DNA of 64,000 nucleotides from Nitrosomonas eutropha (GTDB taxonomy: Bacteria; Pseudomonadota; Gammaproteobacteria; Burkholderiales; Nitrosomonadaceae). Under the pieces are notes generated by a model that was not told the DNA's origin, did not search any database, and saw only the letters and a program-made list of their open reading frames with translations. The stretch lies in NCBI RefSeq assembly GCF_900116685.1, contig NZ_FPBL01000001.1:62001-126000 (forward strand), in the 5' to 3' direction. Both the position numbers and the translations under genes were made by a program. This document shows positions 33,563-64,000 of this stretch, piece by piece (the stretch's first letter is position 1; the number at the start of each line of letters is the position of its first letter).

Positions 33563-34091
33563 ACATCATCAATTAGTAAAGCTGTTTATAACAAAGGCAC
33601 TACCTCTGCAACCTATCACCCCTCTCCTCATCCAGGCTAAACTGCCTCAACGTTCACAGCAGCTTTAACTTCAAATTCTGGTGAAGATTGTCTCTTCTGT
33701 TCATTCAAATCAATAGTGTGACTTAACATCCTGTACGGAGTCATTTAACCACTACAAACCTGAATCAGAATCGATGTGACTTACCTGCTCCATCTAAAAA
33801 ATGAAACATCAACATTACCAAGAAGCCAGAAAATAATAGTATTCAAGCAAATTGTTTCTTGCGATCAAGACAATAAGTTGTACAGGAATCCCTATGCTTT
33901 GGACATCCTGATAAGCGATAAACAACTTGACAGCTCCCAATATTTGTAAAGAAAATAGTTGAAGTAGCTTGGAATCTAAATACTCTTCTAGGCTCCAAAT
34001 CCTTCAGCAAGCAGCTATTGTGTCGTAGAACAAGTAAGTTAATACAGTGCTGCCAGCTGTTCACTGCAACACAATCAGGAGAGAGTGCAAC
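33563..34091. other. About 530 bases without an intact gene between fba and the oxidase operon
   Basis: No intact gene seen. On the minus strand a short frame ending at 33637 reads KRQSSPEFEVKAAV, reminiscent of the start of IS3-type OrfA transposases, but it is under 35 codons long. The oxidase promoter must lie here; TTGACA at about 33927 is a possible -35 element without a convincing -10. A GGAGAGAG ribosome site precedes ccoN. Confidence 0.4.
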
Positions 34092-35750
34092 ATGGATAGT
34101 GCATTACTGAGCCTGCTGGCAGCCTTTTTATTATCACTCATCGGTTTGCTTGCATTCATTTGGTCACTGCGCAAAGGATTATTATTTGAGAATCCACGTG
34201 CTGCTGCCACGATTTTTGCACCCGGAGAAATCGGCAAAGCAGATGATCCGGCCTTGGGTGGATATGCAGCAAAGCGCCTCCAGGAGGAGATAAGTGCATC
34301 CCATGGAAGCGAGCCGCAAGCCGAAGATCCGGATGAAATAGAGGATCGTATCGCTGCTGACCGTTCATCTGCCTTCCCGGTTTTTATGTTCATTGCCTTT
34401 GGCTGCATGTGGCTGATACTGGGCGCAACGGCCGGCCTTGTTTCATCACTCAAACTACATTGGCCAGACTGGCTGGTATCCGAAGGATGGATGACTTTTG
34501 GACGCATGCGAACGGTACATCTGATTGCTGTGCTTTATGGCTGGATCACCAACGTTGAACTGGGCATTATTGTCTGGCTACTGCCGCGTTTACTGCGTAC
34601 CCCCCTGAAGGGGCCATTGTGGGTGATGCTGGGAGGTTCATTTATCAATGTCGGGATTGCCAGCTCTATCGGCGCAATTGGTGCTGGCTGGAGTGACGGC
34701 ATGGAATATCTGGAAATTCCATGGCAAATCGGCCTGTTTGTCCAGGCAGGTATGGTTTGTATCATTGGCTCAGTATTTTATACATTACTCCATCGCAAGG
34801 CGCATGAACTCTATGTAAGCGTGTGGTATCACATCGCTGCCCTATTATGGATTGCGCTGCTGTTTACCGTTGGCAAACTTCCAGGTATTCATTTTGGTGT
34901 ACAACAAGCGATGACCAACTGGTGGTATGGACACAACGTTCTGGGTCTCTGGTTTACCCCGGTCGCCCTGGGTGCCATTTACTATTTTCTGCCCAAAACA
35001 ATCGGGCGGCGAGTGCGCTCCTATAATCTTTCACTGCTGGGTTTTTGGACACTGGCTTTTTTCTACGCGCAGGTGGGCGGACACCATCTGGTTGGCGGGC
35101 CGGTACCCGGATGGCTGATTACACTGTCTATCGTGCAAAGTATGATGATGATCATCCCTGTCGCAGCATTTTCAATCAACATGGCAGGAACCATGTGGGG
35201 ACGCATGCGTCTGGCACTTTATTCTCCAACACTGCGTTTCATGATGTTTGGCGGCTTTATGTATCTGCTATCGTCATTGCAAGGATCGTTTGAAGCACTG
35301 CGTAGTGTTCAGCAGGTTGCACACTTTACACATTTCACGGTAGCCCATGCCCACCTTGGCGCCTACGGTTTCGTCTCGATGATCCTCTTCGGTGCGATCT
35401 ATTTTATGATGCCACGCGTCCTGCACTGGGAATGGCCCTACCCCAAATTGATTTCGCTACATTTCTGGCTTGCTTCCATCGGCATTCTGATCTATTTCGT
35501 CTTTCTGTCATGGGGTGGCTGGCTGCAAGGCCTTGCAATGCTGGATGCCACACGTGAATTCATGGAGTCAGTACGAGTCACTATTCCATACCTGCAGTGG
35601 CGCAGCGTGGGAGGTGGGCTGATGTGGTTTGGCCATGTGATTTTTGTGGGTCATTTACTGGTCATGATATTGCGATTCGGACCCAATCGTACCGGGGAAG
35701 CGCTGTTTGCACCGGAAAAAATGAAACTGGAGATGATGCATGGAAAATGA
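34092..35750 (+). CDS. ccoN: cbb3-type cytochrome oxidase subunit I with an N-terminal CcoS-like domain
   Basis: A 552-residue protein starting at ATG 34092 behind AGGAGAG. Residues 1-45 contain one membrane helix followed by FIWSLRKG, the pattern of the separate small assembly protein CcoS. An acidic linker (about 50-90) leads into the CcoN core. Haem and copper ligands can be placed: His143 (low-spin haem), His281 (WWYGHN, CuB), His331-His332 (GGHH, CuB), and His419 and His421 (VAHAH, haem b3 and low-spin haem). Tyr325, six residues before the HH pair, is the position of the cross-linked Tyr of C-type oxidases, and Glu401 is kept. This favours oxygen reduction over nitric oxide reduction. 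It overlaps ccoO by 11 bases. Confidence 0.88.
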   Translation: MDSALLSLLAAFLLSLIGLLAFIWSLRKGLLFENPRAAATIFAPGEIGKADDPALGGYAAKRLQEEISASHGSEPQAEDPDEIEDRIAADRSSAFPVFMFIAFGCMWLILGATAGLVSSLKLHWPDWLVSEGWMTFGRMRTVHLIAVLYGWITNVELGIIVWLLPRLLRTPLKGPLWVMLGGSFINVGIASSIGAIGAGWSDGMEYLEIPWQIGLFVQAGMVCIIGSVFYTLLHRKAHELYVSVWYHIAALLWIALLFTVGKLPGIHFGVQQAMTNWWYGHNVLGLWFTPVALGAIYYFLPKTIGRRVRSYNLSLLGFWTLAFFYAQVGGHHLVGGPVPGWLITLSIVQSMMMIIPVAAFSINMAGTMWGRMRLALYSPTLRFMMFGGFMYLLSSLQGSFEALRSVQQVAHFTHFTVAHAHLGAYGFVSMILFGAIYFMMPRVLHWEWPYPKLISLHFWLASIGILIYFVFLSWGGWLQGLAMLDATREFMESVRVTIPYLQWRSVGGGLMWFGHVIFVGHLLVMILRFGPNRTGEALFAPEKMKLEMMHGK

Positions 35751-36348
35751 AGCCAAACTGACAGCGGGAGCAATGACAACTTTTGGTATTGCCGTTGCAG
35801 CATTGGTCATTCTCCCCTATATCCAGGTGCGTGATGTTCAACCACCTGAAGGGCTCAAACCCTACACCAGCGCTGAATTACGTGGACGCGAAATTTATGT
35901 CGCCAACGGTTGTTTATACTGCCATACCCAGCAGCCGCGTGATCGCAGCTTCGCTCCGGATTTTGACCGTGGCTGGGGACGAGTATCAACGCCTGGGGAC
36001 TATTATTACGATAAACCACATTTGCTGGGCAGCATGCGCACCGGCCCTGATCTGATGAATATCGGTGTACGCCAGCCAAGCATGGACTGGCACCTGGGGC
36101 ATTTGTACCAGCCACGTGCGTATGTGCCAGATTCCATCATGCCTTCTTATCCCTATATGTTTGAGGTCAAAGATAAGGCCGAAGATGATGAGATAGTCGT
36201 CAAGCTGCCGCCAAAATTTGTACCGTCAGGGAAAATAGTGGTTGCTCGCCCAGAAGCTGTGGATCTGGTGAAATATTTGCAATCGCTTGATCGCAGTTAC
36301 CCAATATTACCGCCGGATCCACAAGGCGCGAATAAAGAGGGCCGTTAA
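35740..36348 (+). CDS. ccoO: cbb3-type oxidase subunit II, monohaem cytochrome c
   Basis: A 202-residue membrane-anchored cytochrome c. An N-terminal helix (about residues 12-28) is followed by the haem site CLYCHTQ (Cys58, Cys61, His62). The region RTGPDLMNIGVRQPS and the Met of IMPSYPYMFE (axial ligand candidate) are typical of CcoO. It passes electrons to CcoN. Its start lies inside the end of ccoN, so the two subunits are translationally coupled. Confidence 0.92.
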   Translation: MENEAKLTAGAMTTFGIAVAALVILPYIQVRDVQPPEGLKPYTSAELRGREIYVANGCLYCHTQQPRDRSFAPDFDRGWGRVSTPGDYYYDKPHLLGSMRTGPDLMNIGVRQPSMDWHLGHLYQPRAYVPDSIMPSYPYMFEVKDKAEDDEIVVKLPPKFVPSGKIVVARPEAVDLVKYLQSLDRSYPILPPDPQGANKEGR

Positions 36349-36412
36349 ATGAAAACGACAAATTGCTTTGTAACGCACAGACATGATCTTCTCAAGCAAA
36401 GAGGAGCATTCC

Positions 36413-37024
36413 ATGGCTAGTAATGACGACAACCGCGCCCAAGAGCGTGAAAATATCGATCCCAAAGAACTTATCCGCCCGATTCCGATCGCAGGATCGT
36501 TAATCACAGTAGGAATGGTTGTCTTCGGTGTAATTTATTTACTTATGTCAGAGCCACTGACAACTTCTCGCTATGGTGATCAGCGTACCCTAGCTGATCT
36601 CTCCGGGCCACAAATTGTTGCTGACGGCAGCGATACAGTCATTGATGGCAAGGCCTTGTATGCGGCACAATGTGCAGCTTGCCATCAGGCGACAGGACAG
36701 GGTGTACCAGGTGTTTTCCCGCCGCTGGACAGCTCGGAATGGGTACAGGGTGAACCGCGTATTCTGGCCAATATCCTGTTACATGGGATTAATGGAGAAG
36801 TAGAAGTTGCCGGACAAAAATACCAAGGCATGATGCCGGCCTTCCCGCAATTAAATGATACTGAGCTGGCTGAAGTGGCCACTTACATCCGCAGCGCCTG
36901 GGGCAACCAGGCAGATGCGGTTCAAGCTGACCTGTTCAAGACAGAGCGTCAATCCGGTGCCGGACGTACCACACCCTTTGAGGGAGAAGCAGCACTCAAG
37001 GCTCTGGCTGAAAAGGGCCATTAA
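36413..37024 (+). CDS. ccoP: CcoP-like membrane cytochrome c with a single haem site
   Basis: A 203-residue protein starting at ATG 36413 behind AGAGGAG. One membrane helix (about 27-46) is followed by one cytochrome c domain with CAACH (Cys87, Cys90, His91) and a candidate Met ligand in QGMMPAFPQL. Usual CcoP subunits have two such domains and about 300 residues; only one CXXCH is present here and no second haem motif is found before the stop. The order after ccoO supports its role as the electron-entry subunit. It could also be regarded as a separate cytochrome c that replaced CcoP. Confidence 0.8.
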   Translation: MASNDDNRAQERENIDPKELIRPIPIAGSLITVGMVVFGVIYLLMSEPLTTSRYGDQRTLADLSGPQIVADGSDTVIDGKALYAAQCAACHQATGQGVPGVFPPLDSSEWVQGEPRILANILLHGINGEVEVAGQKYQGMMPAFPQLNDTELAEVATYIRSAWGNQADAVQADLFKTERQSGAGRTTPFEGEAALKALAEKGH

Positions 37025-37173: not shown

Positions 37174-37827
37174 ATGCTGCATACTATAATTGCAAGCATA
37201 TTGATCGTTCTGCTCGGATGGGGTACAGCATCCTGGCTGACATACGATTTTCAGGTTTGGACCGACGAAGGTGCGCGTCGCCTGGAAGTAGCCTTACAAC
37301 CAGTAAATGCGCCGCCCGTACTAATTGAAGGGCCAGATCTTGCTGTAACAGAGCTCTCGGCTCTGTTACAGCAAAAGAATAAGGTAACAATCGTAGATTT
37401 TTTCTATACTCGCTGCCAAACCGTATGTCTTTCATTAGGCAGTATTTTTCAACAAATGCAGGCCGCCTTGCTCAATGACGAAAGTAACGACGAGCATACG
37501 GGAAATATCCGTCTGCTCTCTATTAGCTTTGATCGCGAACACGATGACCTGCCCGCACTCAAGACTTATGCCGACAATCTGAGTGCCAGACCAGAGCTCT
37601 GGCGTTTTGCACGTGTATTACAGGCAGAACAGGAGCAAGTTCTGTTGCAGCAGCTTGGAGTAGTGGTGATACCCGATGGCCGCGGTGATTACGAGCACAA
37701 TGCCGCCCTGCTGGTATTTGATGGTGCTGGACGCATAGTGCGTATATTTGATATCGAGGAATACCAGCTAGCACTTGATTATGCACGCTATCTGGCACGC
37801 AAGCAGATACAGGAAGCTTCGTTGTGA
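37174..37827 (+). CDS. SCO1/SenC family copper chaperone
   Basis: A 217-residue thioredoxin-fold protein with an N-terminal membrane anchor. The copper ligands of the family are present: Cys81 and Cys85 in TRCQTVC, and His175 in YEHNAALLVFD. SCO proteins deliver copper to haem-copper oxidases, including CuB of cbb3 enzymes. It lies 149 bases after ccoP and overlaps the next gene by four bases (GTGA), so it is probably dedicated to this oxidase. Confidence 0.9.
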   Translation: MLHTIIASILIVLLGWGTASWLTYDFQVWTDEGARRLEVALQPVNAPPVLIEGPDLAVTELSALLQQKNKVTIVDFFYTRCQTVCLSLGSIFQQMQAALLNDESNDEHTGNIRLLSISFDREHDDLPALKTYADNLSARPELWRFARVLQAEQEQVLLQQLGVVVIPDGRGDYEHNAALLVFDGAGRIVRIFDIEEYQLALDYARYLARKQIQEASL

Positions 37828-38408
37828 ATAAGCGTTGGCAAGCTGTTTTAGGCTTAGGCTTACTGCTGTTTATAGCCACACCTAGCGTACGTTATGCTAT
37901 GGAAAAAAGCATGTGGTGTCACATGTTGGTGCAGTTTCCGCTCTGGATGGGAGCAGCTGCTTTGCTTGCCGGAGGAATGCCAGCACGAATATGCAAGGTT
38001 ATTGCTCGCTGGAATATGTATGGAATCAGCGGATTATTCGTAACGGGTGTTACGCTCGCTGTGCTGATGATACCACGTGTACTTGATCAAGCATTACTGC
38101 ACCCGGAAATGGAGCTGGCCAAATTAACAGCATTAGTTCTGGCAGGTATGGCGTTACGTCTGTCATGGCGCCCAGCTGGTCTGATTCTGCAATTTTTCTT
38201 TCTGGGCAATATGCTACCCATGATGGGAGTAGTTGGGTGGTTGTATACTGAATCACCACTGCGTCTATGCAATGCCTATCTGCTTGATGACCAGATACAG
38301 CTAGGCAACTGGCTGATTGGGTTGGCTGCTGTAATCTCCATAGTGTGGCTGTCATGGATTACATGGCTCATAACTTATCAGGAAATCCGGCAGACATCAC
38401 ATCGCTAG
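37824..38408 (+). CDS. Unrecognised six-helix membrane protein coupled to the SCO gene
   Basis: A 194-residue hydrophobic protein starting with GTG inside the SCO stop codon. I see about six membrane segments (around residues 7-22, 35-50, 64-85, 100-116, 119-140 and 158-180). The segment SMWCHMLVQFPLWMGAA has a Cys, a His and Met residues that could bind metal, but this is only suggestive. I do not recognise the family. The gene order oxidase-SenC-membrane protein recalls the norSY-senC-orf1 cluster described in ammonia oxidisers, so an assembly role is plausible. Confidence 0.75.
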   Translation: MNKRWQAVLGLGLLLFIATPSVRYAMEKSMWCHMLVQFPLWMGAAALLAGGMPARICKVIARWNMYGISGLFVTGVTLAVLMIPRVLDQALLHPEMELAKLTALVLAGMALRLSWRPAGLILQFFFLGNMLPMMGVVGWLYTESPLRLCNAYLLDDQIQLGNWLIGLAAVISIVWLSWITWLITYQEIRQTSHR

Positions 38409-61891: not shown

Positions 61892-62440
61892 CTACTGTTT
61901 CGCCTCGGACGGATGCTCGTCCTTCTCCTTTTTTTCTTCCACTACCTGCGTCATGTAGGTCTCCACTTCCTCACGGCTAAGCTCCTCGACACGAGCGGCG
62001 AAGGCCGGATAGACCTGGACATGGGTTTGGCCGGCATAAGGCCCGCTGAGCTGAAAAAACTGCCAGCCCTCGCTCTTCAGTGACTCGACAGTGCGCCGGT
62101 AATGGCGCCATCGTTCGCCATAGTGAAAAAACTCCTCCACGGCGGCACTCAGCGCCACCACGAGACTGACGATAAACGTAAGCGTCTTGATTGCGGCCGC
62201 AGCACCATCACCGACGTTCAAGCTGACCAGCGCCGGAACGATTACGCCCCCGATAATAGTCGTGAGGCGCAGAATGTTATGCCACAAGATGGAATTCCAT
62301 GCCCTCTCATCCATCCAGATCACTTGCTCTAGCCACCGTGCCCGGAGAAACTGCTTATTCAGCTCCGGCAACTCCAATACCTCGATGAGCTTGCCCATCT
62401 CCACCCGCATCTGTTCATGGTCTTTCGTTTTTTTCAGCAT
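61892..62440 (-). CDS. DUF4231 / SLATT-like two-helix membrane protein
   Basis: About 182 residues from ATG 62440 (the frame is open further to 62518). A charged N-terminal part leads to two membrane helices (about 57-75 and 83-103), then HYGERWRHYRRTVESLKSEGW and QLSGPY, typical of DUF4231, and a Glu/Lys-rich C-terminal tail. SLATT-type proteins are predicted pore-forming effectors of bacterial conflict systems, but DUF4231 members have no proven role. The gene looks richer in G+C than its neighbours, which suggests recent transfer. No partner sensor gene is visible within the window. Confidence 0.75.
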   Translation of the reverse strand: MLKKTKDHEQMRVEMGKLIEVLELPELNKQFLRARWLEQVIWMDERAWNSILWHNILRLTTIIGGVIVPALVSLNVGDGAAAAIKTLTFIVSLVVALSAAVEEFFHYGERWRHYRRTVESLKSEGWQFFQLSGPYAGQTHVQVYPAFAARVEELSREEVETYMTQVVEEKKEKDEHPSEAKQ

Positions 62441-62505
62441 GGTCGCCCCGCAAGAAAAAAATCGAGCGCATCTGGTGTATAGGAAAAATAAATGCGCTTT
62501 TTCTA

Positions 62506-62564
62506 AGAACCTGTTCAATATCTCACTGAGGTGCGCATTACGGCGTTGAAATTGAACAGGTTCT
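62506..62564. repeat. Inverted repeat with 14-base perfect arms
   Basis: AGAACCTGTTCAAT (62506-62519) and ATTGAACAGGTTCT (62551-62564) flank 31 bases. It has no T-run in either direction, so it is not a classical terminator. It may be the end of, or a whole, small mobile repeat between the DUF4231 gene and the P450. Confidence 0.65.
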
Positions 62565-62729: not shown

Positions 62730-64000
62730 TCAGAAGCCAATCTTAAAGTGCATGGCAAACCAGTTTTCTTCATCCATTTCAAGCTCACCACGCCGTTTCA
62801 GGGAACCGATTCTGAGCATCGCACGCAGCGATTCCTGCATGGTGATTTCTGAGGCATAGCGGCCCAGACATTTATGCCGCCCGTAGCCGTGTTGTAAATA
62901 AATCAGGCTTTGAGGCGCCTCGCTGGCGCGTTCCTGATTGCACAAGTAAGGCGTTAGCCGTTCATCTCGTGTGACATCAAAGGCCGTTGGATTTGGTACT
63001 ACTTCCGGATCCAGCATGGCTGCGGCATAGGCTACAAACACAACTGTTCCTTTACCGAGGGAGACACCACCAAGTACATCGTTGTCTTGTACGCACATTC
63101 GCAATAAAACCTCACCTTGCGGTTCGAGACGCAAAGCTTCCAGGGCATACTTGCGAAGCCTTTCCAGGCTTTCCGTGTAATCCGACTCATCCGACTCGTC
63201 CGGCTCCACATTGGCCCAATGGCGTGCCTGTTCGAAGCCGGAATCGTTTAATACTTCGTATTTATCCTCCTTCAAGCGAAGCATGGAATCCAGAATACGC
63301 GCCGTTGCTTCCTGGGGATTGACTACCGCACCGACAGCTGTACCAAACACATTCGACCTGATCATTGAATCCGAGAGACGCCGCGCCAGTTCACCTTGCG
63401 GAAGCGGTGCACCGAGCAACCTGGTGAACTCCTTTTCCAGCTTGCCAGTATTTTGTGCCAGTTCAAGCTGCATCCGCAGCAATCTCGTCAGCATGGTGTC
63501 AGGCACCGTTTCACCGTGCTGTAACCTTGCCTTATAGTGCTGAAGCAGTGCGAAAATGTAGGCGCTGAGATATTCGGTCGCGATAATGCCACGCTCACGG
63601 TATTCGGTAAATTTAGGATAAGCCGGATTAATATTATTGAAAATATTACGGAAAGCATCTTTTACCCAGTCAAACAGATCATCCCCGGTCGGCACGATGC
63701 CTTCTTTTATTCTGGTAAAAGTAAAAAATTTCTGCAGATTTTCATCGAGGGCAAAATGATCTCCTCCCCGTAATCCCGGTAATGCTGAGGGCGCTCCTGC
63801 CTCGCAATAGTGGACGCCCAGATAATCGCCAACGATACGCAACGGTACGAATTTGGCGATCGTTGCCACCACATCAATTTCACCTGTGCCTTCGGCTTGT
63901 GCCTGATGTGTCCAGCGTTCAGCTTCCTCGCGAGCCAGGCGGATGAGCGTTTCCTTGTCGCTACGTGATACGGCCCGCCGCAATATTACGTCATCAAGTC
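62730..64000 (-). CDS. Cytochrome P450 with an atypical I-helix (5' end beyond the right edge)
   Basis: The minus-strand frame is open from the right edge (64000) to a TGA at 62730, over 420 codons; the N-terminus lies outside. The haem loop HGYGRHKCLGRYASEITMQE has its Cys codon near 62869, and EALRLEP gives the ExxR of helix K. The I-helix region reads FGTAVGAVVNPQEA and lacks the usual acid-Thr pair needed for oxygen activation. This recalls P450s that rearrange hydroperoxides (allene oxide synthase, fungal Ppo C-terminal domain). The substrate is unknown. Confidence 0.85.
   Translation of the reverse strand, partial: LDDVILRRAVSRSDKETLIRLAREEAERWTHQAQAEGTGEIDVVATIAKFVPLRIVGDYLGVHYCEAGAPSALPGLRGGDHFALDENLQKFFTFTRIKEGIVPTGDDLFDWVKDAFRNIFNNINPAYPKFTEYRERGIIATEYLSAYIFALLQHYKARLQHGETVPDTMLTRLLRMQLELAQNTGKLEKEFTRLLGAPLPQGELARRLSDSMIRSNVFGTAVGAVVNPQEATARILDSMLRLKEDKYEVLNDSGFEQARHWANVEPDESDESDYTESLERLRKYALEALRLEPQGEVLLRMCVQDNDVLGGVSLGKGTVVFVAYAAAMLDPEVVPNPTAFDVTRDERLTPYLCNQERASEAPQSLIYLQHGYGRHKCLGRYASEITMQESLRAMLRIGSLKRRGELEMDEENWFAMHFKIGF

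Follow-up and report, generated by a model that had tools for sequence, protein, structure and literature searches.

Does the oxidase subunit encoded at positions 34,092 to 35,750 of this DNA carry its own assembly factor? The window analyzed here, a stretch of 64,000 nucleotides from Nitrosomonas eutropha, contains an open frame on the forward strand at these positions that translates into 552 amino acids with no internal stop. The original prediction proposed that its first residues correspond to CcoS, usually a free maturation protein, fused to the catalytic subunit CcoN. In the excerpted text of PMC8267372, CcoS is reported to be necessary for haem b, haem b3 and CuB in CcoN (citing Koch et al. 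2000), its loss nearly abolishes activity in Campylobacter, and the protein is described as lacking a characteristic motif. The role of CcoS in cbb3 assembly is unsettled, and a natural fusion suggests that it would act at CcoN itself, with one copy per enzyme.

Layout of the gene and its operon

The predicted order of helix, FIWSLRKG, short tail, acidic linker and CcoN core is present in the translation (Table 1). Residues 97-508 match the COX1 profile, and the linker region (residues 45-94) contains 13 D/E compared with 5 K/R. When the sequence was read by eye, an AGGAG-type stretch was found at 34077-34081 upstream of the start codon, and the start position is common to relatives, as ATG or GTG. 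In a scan of named genomes, two Nitrosomonas eutropha records came out as the nearest named relatives, at 95% and 94%.

Table 1. Features of the fused gene and its operon in the window, with one canonical ccoN from another Nitrosomonas genome.
Feature	Position	Strand	Remark
Ribosome-binding-site-like AGGAGAGAG	34077..34085	+	read by eye; 5' of ATG 34092
CcoS-derived N-terminal domain, codons 1-54	34092..34253	+	profiles, alignments, selection
Parts of the CcoS-derived domain			helix 2-27, FIWSLRKG, tail IFAPGEIG..DDP
Acidic linker, codons 55-95	34254..34376	+	less constrained; composition, selection
C-family haem-copper oxidase subunit I core (CcoN-like), codons 96-552 + stop	34377..35750	+	
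ccoO (FixO)	35740..36348	+	start overlaps ccoN end by 11 bases
ccoP-like gene	36383..37024	+	single CxxCH haem c site
SCO1/SenC-family copper chaperone gene	37174..37827	+	
194-aa membrane protein gene	37824..38408	+	fifth gene of conserved operon
Canonical ccoN of Nitrosomonas G046	G046:C21:42839-44224		L156, L162

An AlphaFold model built with 47 sequences gave an overall pLDDT of 84.7. Confidence was low for the new helix (block means 58-68), so the model does not fix where this extra helix sits; residues 41-70 reached 77-79.

Compared with a canonical operon, the one in the window has a single-haem CcoP, adds the SCO gene and the gene for the 194-aa membrane protein, and lacks ccoGHIS. The 194-aa protein matched no family over its cut-off, the only hit being Caa3_CtaG with an E-value of 0.51. 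Elsewhere in the window, a cytochrome P450-like ORF was seen by eye on the reverse strand (62730-63983), with a small membrane-type ORF (61892-62518) beside it.

Origin of the N-terminal domain

We asked how well the N-terminus resembles CcoS when taken alone. Against TIGR00847 (cut-off 28.35), residues 1-66 scored 22.1 bits with an E-value of 8.8e-5; against FixS (PF03597; cut-off 23.1), they scored 16.2 bits. Over 85 genomes of the genus, TIGR00847 matched nothing at its cut-off. Ranked by E-value, four fused N-termini came 1st, 2nd, 3rd and 5th, and the 4th rank was taken by another place, in Nitrosomonas G018 (20.9 bits), not by the fused gene. Because the window's scores lie below both cut-offs and the G018 place reaches 20.9 bits, the single-sequence match proves little; since the curated cut-offs are not reached, we call the domain CcoS-derived rather than a curated CcoS.

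The sequence details show both what the domain shares with free CcoS and what it does not. Alike are an N-terminal helix followed by W and G, an acidic tail and linkage to ccoN. In the region of the GQFDD-type motif the W and G are kept, with RKGLLFEN in the window and RKGLFD in many fused relatives, and the QFDD core is eroded in N. eutropha (GLLFEN). The fused form differs further in being joined by a linker of ~40 residues to the catalytic subunit, in scoring below the curated cut-offs and in its extra conserved tail, IF...E.G....P, whose I41, F42, E46, G48 and P53 are conserved and not apparent in the free CcoS alignment.

The comparison was then carried to the family level, using a profile of the free CcoS proteins in these genomes (37 sequences; L127 was excluded, as the wrong frame had been picked). 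Against it, 45 fused N-termini scored 12.6-24.7 bits and 13 ORFs adjacent to an unfused ccoN scored 15.1-33.4 bits; the N-terminus of the window protein (P0001) scored 13.9 bits. This value was reached by 2 of the 968 TM-containing control pieces and by none of 4500 shuffles (4482 scored). One of the two control pieces is a leaked fused N-terminus and the other comes from a locus selected for its FixS match; three lower control pieces among the top five were also leaked fused N-termini. Aligned with hhalign, the 45 fused N-termini matched the 37 free CcoS proteins at 95.7% (P 8.5e-9, homology over 49 columns) and the 13 adjacent CcoS-like ORFs at 98.0% (P 2.7e-13), compared with 3.1% and 6.7% for the CcoO and CcoP anchors used as controls. 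When the carrier genomes were scored with FixS in six frames, 19 fused places (frames of 551-605 residues) reached the cut-off, with a best score of 27.5 bits; as full-length proteins, 0/7 fused sequences reached it (best 22.8) and two gave no match at E 1. Judged by these profiles, homology to free CcoS extends through the first ~54 residues, covering the helix and the tail. The CcoS match foreseen for the N-terminus thus exists; it is weak and below cut-off by itself, and the homology becomes firm through the relatives.

A weak single-sequence match could also come from an extra helix that has no relation to CcoS and only a chance resemblance to it, and an extra N-terminal helix, TMH0, is described for Rhodobacter capsulatus CcoN in the excerpted text of PMC7876108. 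We detected no sequence relation between TMH0 and the fused domain: a search of solved structures with the fused profile returned no CcoN chain at E-values up to 10, a miss that is not proof, and TMH0 was set aside as the source of the domain. A single free-CcoS query against solved structures found no CcoS either. What speaks against a chance helix is the family-wide profile match with its controls, together with relatives that hold a free CcoS in the same place. The profile-profile comparison, with the CcoO and CcoP anchors as controls, rules this reading out for practical purposes, and we regard it as hardly credible.

One scan of named genomes gave 66 loci, of which 44 are fused, 13 have a free adjacent CcoS-like ORF and 9 have neither. 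The N-terminus sought on other CcoN proteins is therefore shared by two thirds of the loci (44/66), and the fusion is not confined to the genome of the window. Its carriers include N. eutropha, Massilia, Alcaligenes, Cupriavidus, Herbaspirillum, Hydrogenophaga, Lysobacter, Granulosicoccus, Paraburkholderia and others; the fused form is present in N. eutropha-like bacteria and in many other proteobacteria. Genes for the SCO protein and the 194-aa protein lie downstream at 37 of the 44 fused loci and at 0 of the 22 unfused ones, 7 of which span less than 2.5 kb downstream.

At 13 of the 22 unfused loci, a separate CcoS-like ORF lies at the start of a ccoN without the extension, with its end in the interval from 51 bases upstream to 84 bases downstream of the point where the matched ccoN stretch starts. 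These loci belong to five Gemmatimonadota, four Methylobacillus, bacterium HR37, a Myxococcota MAG and two Pseudomonadota MAGs. In six-frame scoring with FixS, eight of the adjacent ORFs passed the cut-off, three scored 18.0-20.9 bits and two were absent at E 1. As a protein, the adjacent CcoS of L010, which is the same place as L091 in Methylobacillus arboreus, passes FixS with 24.7 bits.

The remaining nine loci are from Verrucomicrobiota. None has a CcoS-like ORF with a helix, although little upstream DNA was available at two of them (211 bases at L089, 698 at L092), and none of the nine genomes has a FixS match over the cut-off. In one Chthoniobacterales locus (L096:1187-1639), an ORF overlapping the ccoN start encodes a CcoS-like tail, AEVIFDPDEPVG, with no helix. 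It is possibly a remnant, and none of the eight remaining Verrucomicrobiota loci shows it.

In a quick tree built from 74 cores (43 fused, 13 adjacent, 8 without and 10 canonical or other), a branch with an SH-aLRT of 90, not starred, separates the fused rows from all others. L076, L077 and L101, which have odd, broken or truncated frames, were excluded from the tree and from the ligand counts given below, and two long outer rows (L011 and L018) were flagged. Fused versus not fused requires one change and the three states require two, counts that give no direction. It is likely that a free neighboring CcoS came first and the fusion later.

Finally, we compared the window with three Nitrosomonas relatives codon by codon. 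Codons 1-54 gave pN 0.008-0.016 and pS 0.441-0.667, the linker pN 0.079-0.131 and pS 0.518-0.745, and the core pN 0.020-0.030 and pS 0.449-0.691. Thus, the N-terminal domain is under purifying selection and constrained like the catalytic core, and the linker is looser. This is the pattern expected of a functional fusion, in which domain and enzyme are both held under constraint and the tether between them is freer to vary.

Enzyme class and active site of the core

By alignment, the ligand and cross-link Tyr positions of the window protein are H143, H281, Y298, H331, H332, H419 and H421. All seven haem b, haem b3, CuB and cross-link Tyr positions are kept in 43/43 fused rows and 13/13 adjacent-CcoS rows. 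The expected full CcoN core holds for these positions but not for the family assignment, as the core scores 241.6 bits against the TIGR00780 ccoN equivalog, whose cut-off is 583.15. This is not a standard CcoN but a divergent subunit I of the C family. The best solved matches in a structural comparison spanning only the core are cbb3 CcoN chains, with Z scores of 42.9-44.5 (top 8smr_E, 44.5), and it shares with canonical CcoN (TIGR00780; 3mk7, 8smr, 6xkw) both the fold and the haem b, b3, CuB and cross-link positions. It differs in its 29-30% identity in the structural alignment and in one exchange: Q397 (window 35280-35282) replaces the Glu of canonical CcoN (E323 in the P. stutzeri chain). 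This column holds E in 8/8 canonical rows and Gln in 42/43 fused and 13/21 unfused rows.

Ammonia oxidisers handle NO, and the Gln at this position, like that habit, would suit a core that is a nitric oxide reductase, in which case our finding would concern NO and not O2. However, the cross-link Tyr column is kept in every fused row, and the fold is nearer to CcoN than to nitric oxide reductases (Z 36.2-38.2; 4xyd 38.2). On the fold ranking (38.2 vs 44.5) and the retained Tyr, we rejected an identity with NorB. In addition, ccoO and ccoP genes adjoin, and N. eutropha is described, in the excerpted texts of PMC5118430 and PMC6967387, as possessing a cbb3 oxidase absent from N. europaea. We consider a nitric oxide reductase very unlikely.

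The Verrucomicrobiota cousins offer a contrast, with neither b3/CuB ligands nor CcoS. In 8/8 of their scorable rows, Y stands in place of the b3 His, and N, Q, and R or Q stand in place of the three CuB His; both low-spin haem ligands are kept in 6/8. These homologues retain CcoO and, where there is enough DNA, CcoP. They have the shape of an oxidase but would not be expected to reduce oxygen. The joint absence of the b3/CuB ligands and CcoS would fit a role of CcoS at the b3/CuB center, a correlation that is perhaps one event, because it comes from one clade. The ligand-less CcoN homologues, found at L089, L092-L096, L098 and L099, adjoin ccoO homologues, and the one at L098 lies after what we take to be an alternative complex III operon.

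Maturation genes in carrier genomes and the proposed role of the domain

The original prediction noted that none of ccoGHIS is adjacent. This holds at the locus, and the absence extends to the genome of the window for CcoG (no match at E 0.001), CcoH (no match at E 0.01) and a free ccoS (none over the TIGR00847 or FixS cut-offs). A hidden free ccoS was also sought with the fused profile, which at E 1 recovered only the fused gene. The CcoH negative is weak, because the same search also gave none in G120, a genome with canonical ccoN and CcoG. The CcoI search returned one full-length copper ATPase over the cut-off and three weaker partial matches. The full-length protein, with a CASC metal-binding motif at its start and a cation-diffusion-type gene adjoining, is presumably CopA or CcoI. 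Taken together, four N. eutropha-like genomes hold a cbb3-type oxidase without detectable CcoG, CcoH or free CcoS.

We next looked at 46 carrier genomes (G000, G001, G044, G056 and G103-G144; G101 and G102 match G056 and G001 in sizes and places and were not counted as extra genomes). Both a free ccoS and a canonical ccoN are present in 39 of them, 7 have neither, and none has one alone. The free ccoS is over the cut-off in all 39, that of G141 in two pieces. In G127 the canonical ccoN is in two pieces; the other 38 canonical ccoN are over the cut-off. The probability of this all-or-none pattern by chance is 1.9e-8, but these are related genomes, and those with neither gene fall into three lineages: four Nitrosomonas (the lineage of the window), Granulosicoccus G134, and Paraburkholderia/Burkholderia G142 and G144. 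As free ccoS and canonical ccoN usually cluster, their co-occurrence is expected. The idea that genomes with a fused CcoN would lack a separate ccoS is thus borne out in 7/46, and the 39 that do have one each carry a second, canonical ccoN. In the seven, the fused oxidase does without a free CcoS, and we infer that the domain replaces it. An absent ccoS need not imply a substitute, as seen in Nitrosomonas G046 (91% complete), whose canonical ccoN (Table 1) is accompanied by no ccoS over the cut-off in the genome and by none within the 12 kb examined. None of the outcomes that would have told against a fusion was encountered: a CcoS profile match exists, a normal ccoS was not detected in the genome, and the extended homologues show the CcoS signature.

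Our model is that of a natural fusion of CcoS and CcoN, probably of single origin, in which the domain would load haem b3 and CuB into its own CcoN and replace a diffusible CcoS; we give this reading a probability of roughly 75%. An assembly-factor role would be the best explanation of the fused domain. Over the 45 sequences, residues 1-6 contain on average 0 K/R and residues 25-34 contain 1.9; under the positive-inside rule, this charge distribution implies an external N-terminus and a cytoplasmic tail. The N-terminus of CcoN itself is cytoplasmic in cbb3 structures, and the fusion is therefore topologically allowed. We hypothesize that the helix, with its N-terminus outside, would lead through its cytoplasmic tail into the N-terminus of CcoN, that the flexible acidic linker would tether the domain to the enzyme at one copy each, that the domain so tethered probably contributes when haem b3 and CuB are loaded into its own CcoN, and that the SCO protein encoded in the operon probably brings copper from the periplasmic side.

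The domain may instead descend from CcoS and no longer load cofactors, serving as a 13th helix of subunit I that stabilizes the complex or binds CcoO or CcoP. Such a helix would stay attached in the mature enzyme, as the fused domain does unless it is cut off; it would also agree with the worn core motif in N. eutropha, with the conserved tail positions particular to the fused form and with the better modeling of residues 41-70 than of the helix. The seven fused-only genomes argue the other way, since without a free CcoS their enzyme uses its own domain or none, as do the Verrucomicrobiota that lack CcoS along with the b3/CuB ligands yet kept CcoO and, where there is enough DNA, CcoP. We judge a purely structural helix improbable, though it is the strongest of the rivals to a loading domain. 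Extending the model of a fused loader, an entire clade of C-family oxidases might mature without the CcoG-CcoH-CcoS set, with the built-in CcoS as a permanent loader in cis, the SCO and 194-aa proteins covering the remaining steps in most members, and the loader able to re-metallate its own site in service. This extension is tentative, and we would bet slightly against it.

Both halves of the protein are known families; the fusion, its one-branch distribution and its status as the sole CcoS were not found described. Among the matches listed in the open-licence PMC literature, no description of a CcoS-CcoN fusion was found, nor does one occur in the excerpted texts of PMC8267372, PMC8780969, PMC8475189, PMC5118430, PMC6967387, PMC7876108 and PMC5829832. 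The nearest parallels tie other parts of the system together. The engineered CcoI-SenC fusion, reported as functional in the excerpted text of PMC8475189, also links cbb3 assembly parts, but it is laboratory-made and joins two copper carriers rather than a factor and the catalytic subunit. The CcoN-CcoO fusion (NCBIfam NF011053) is, like the one described here, a natural fusion of CcoN, but it joins two structural subunits.
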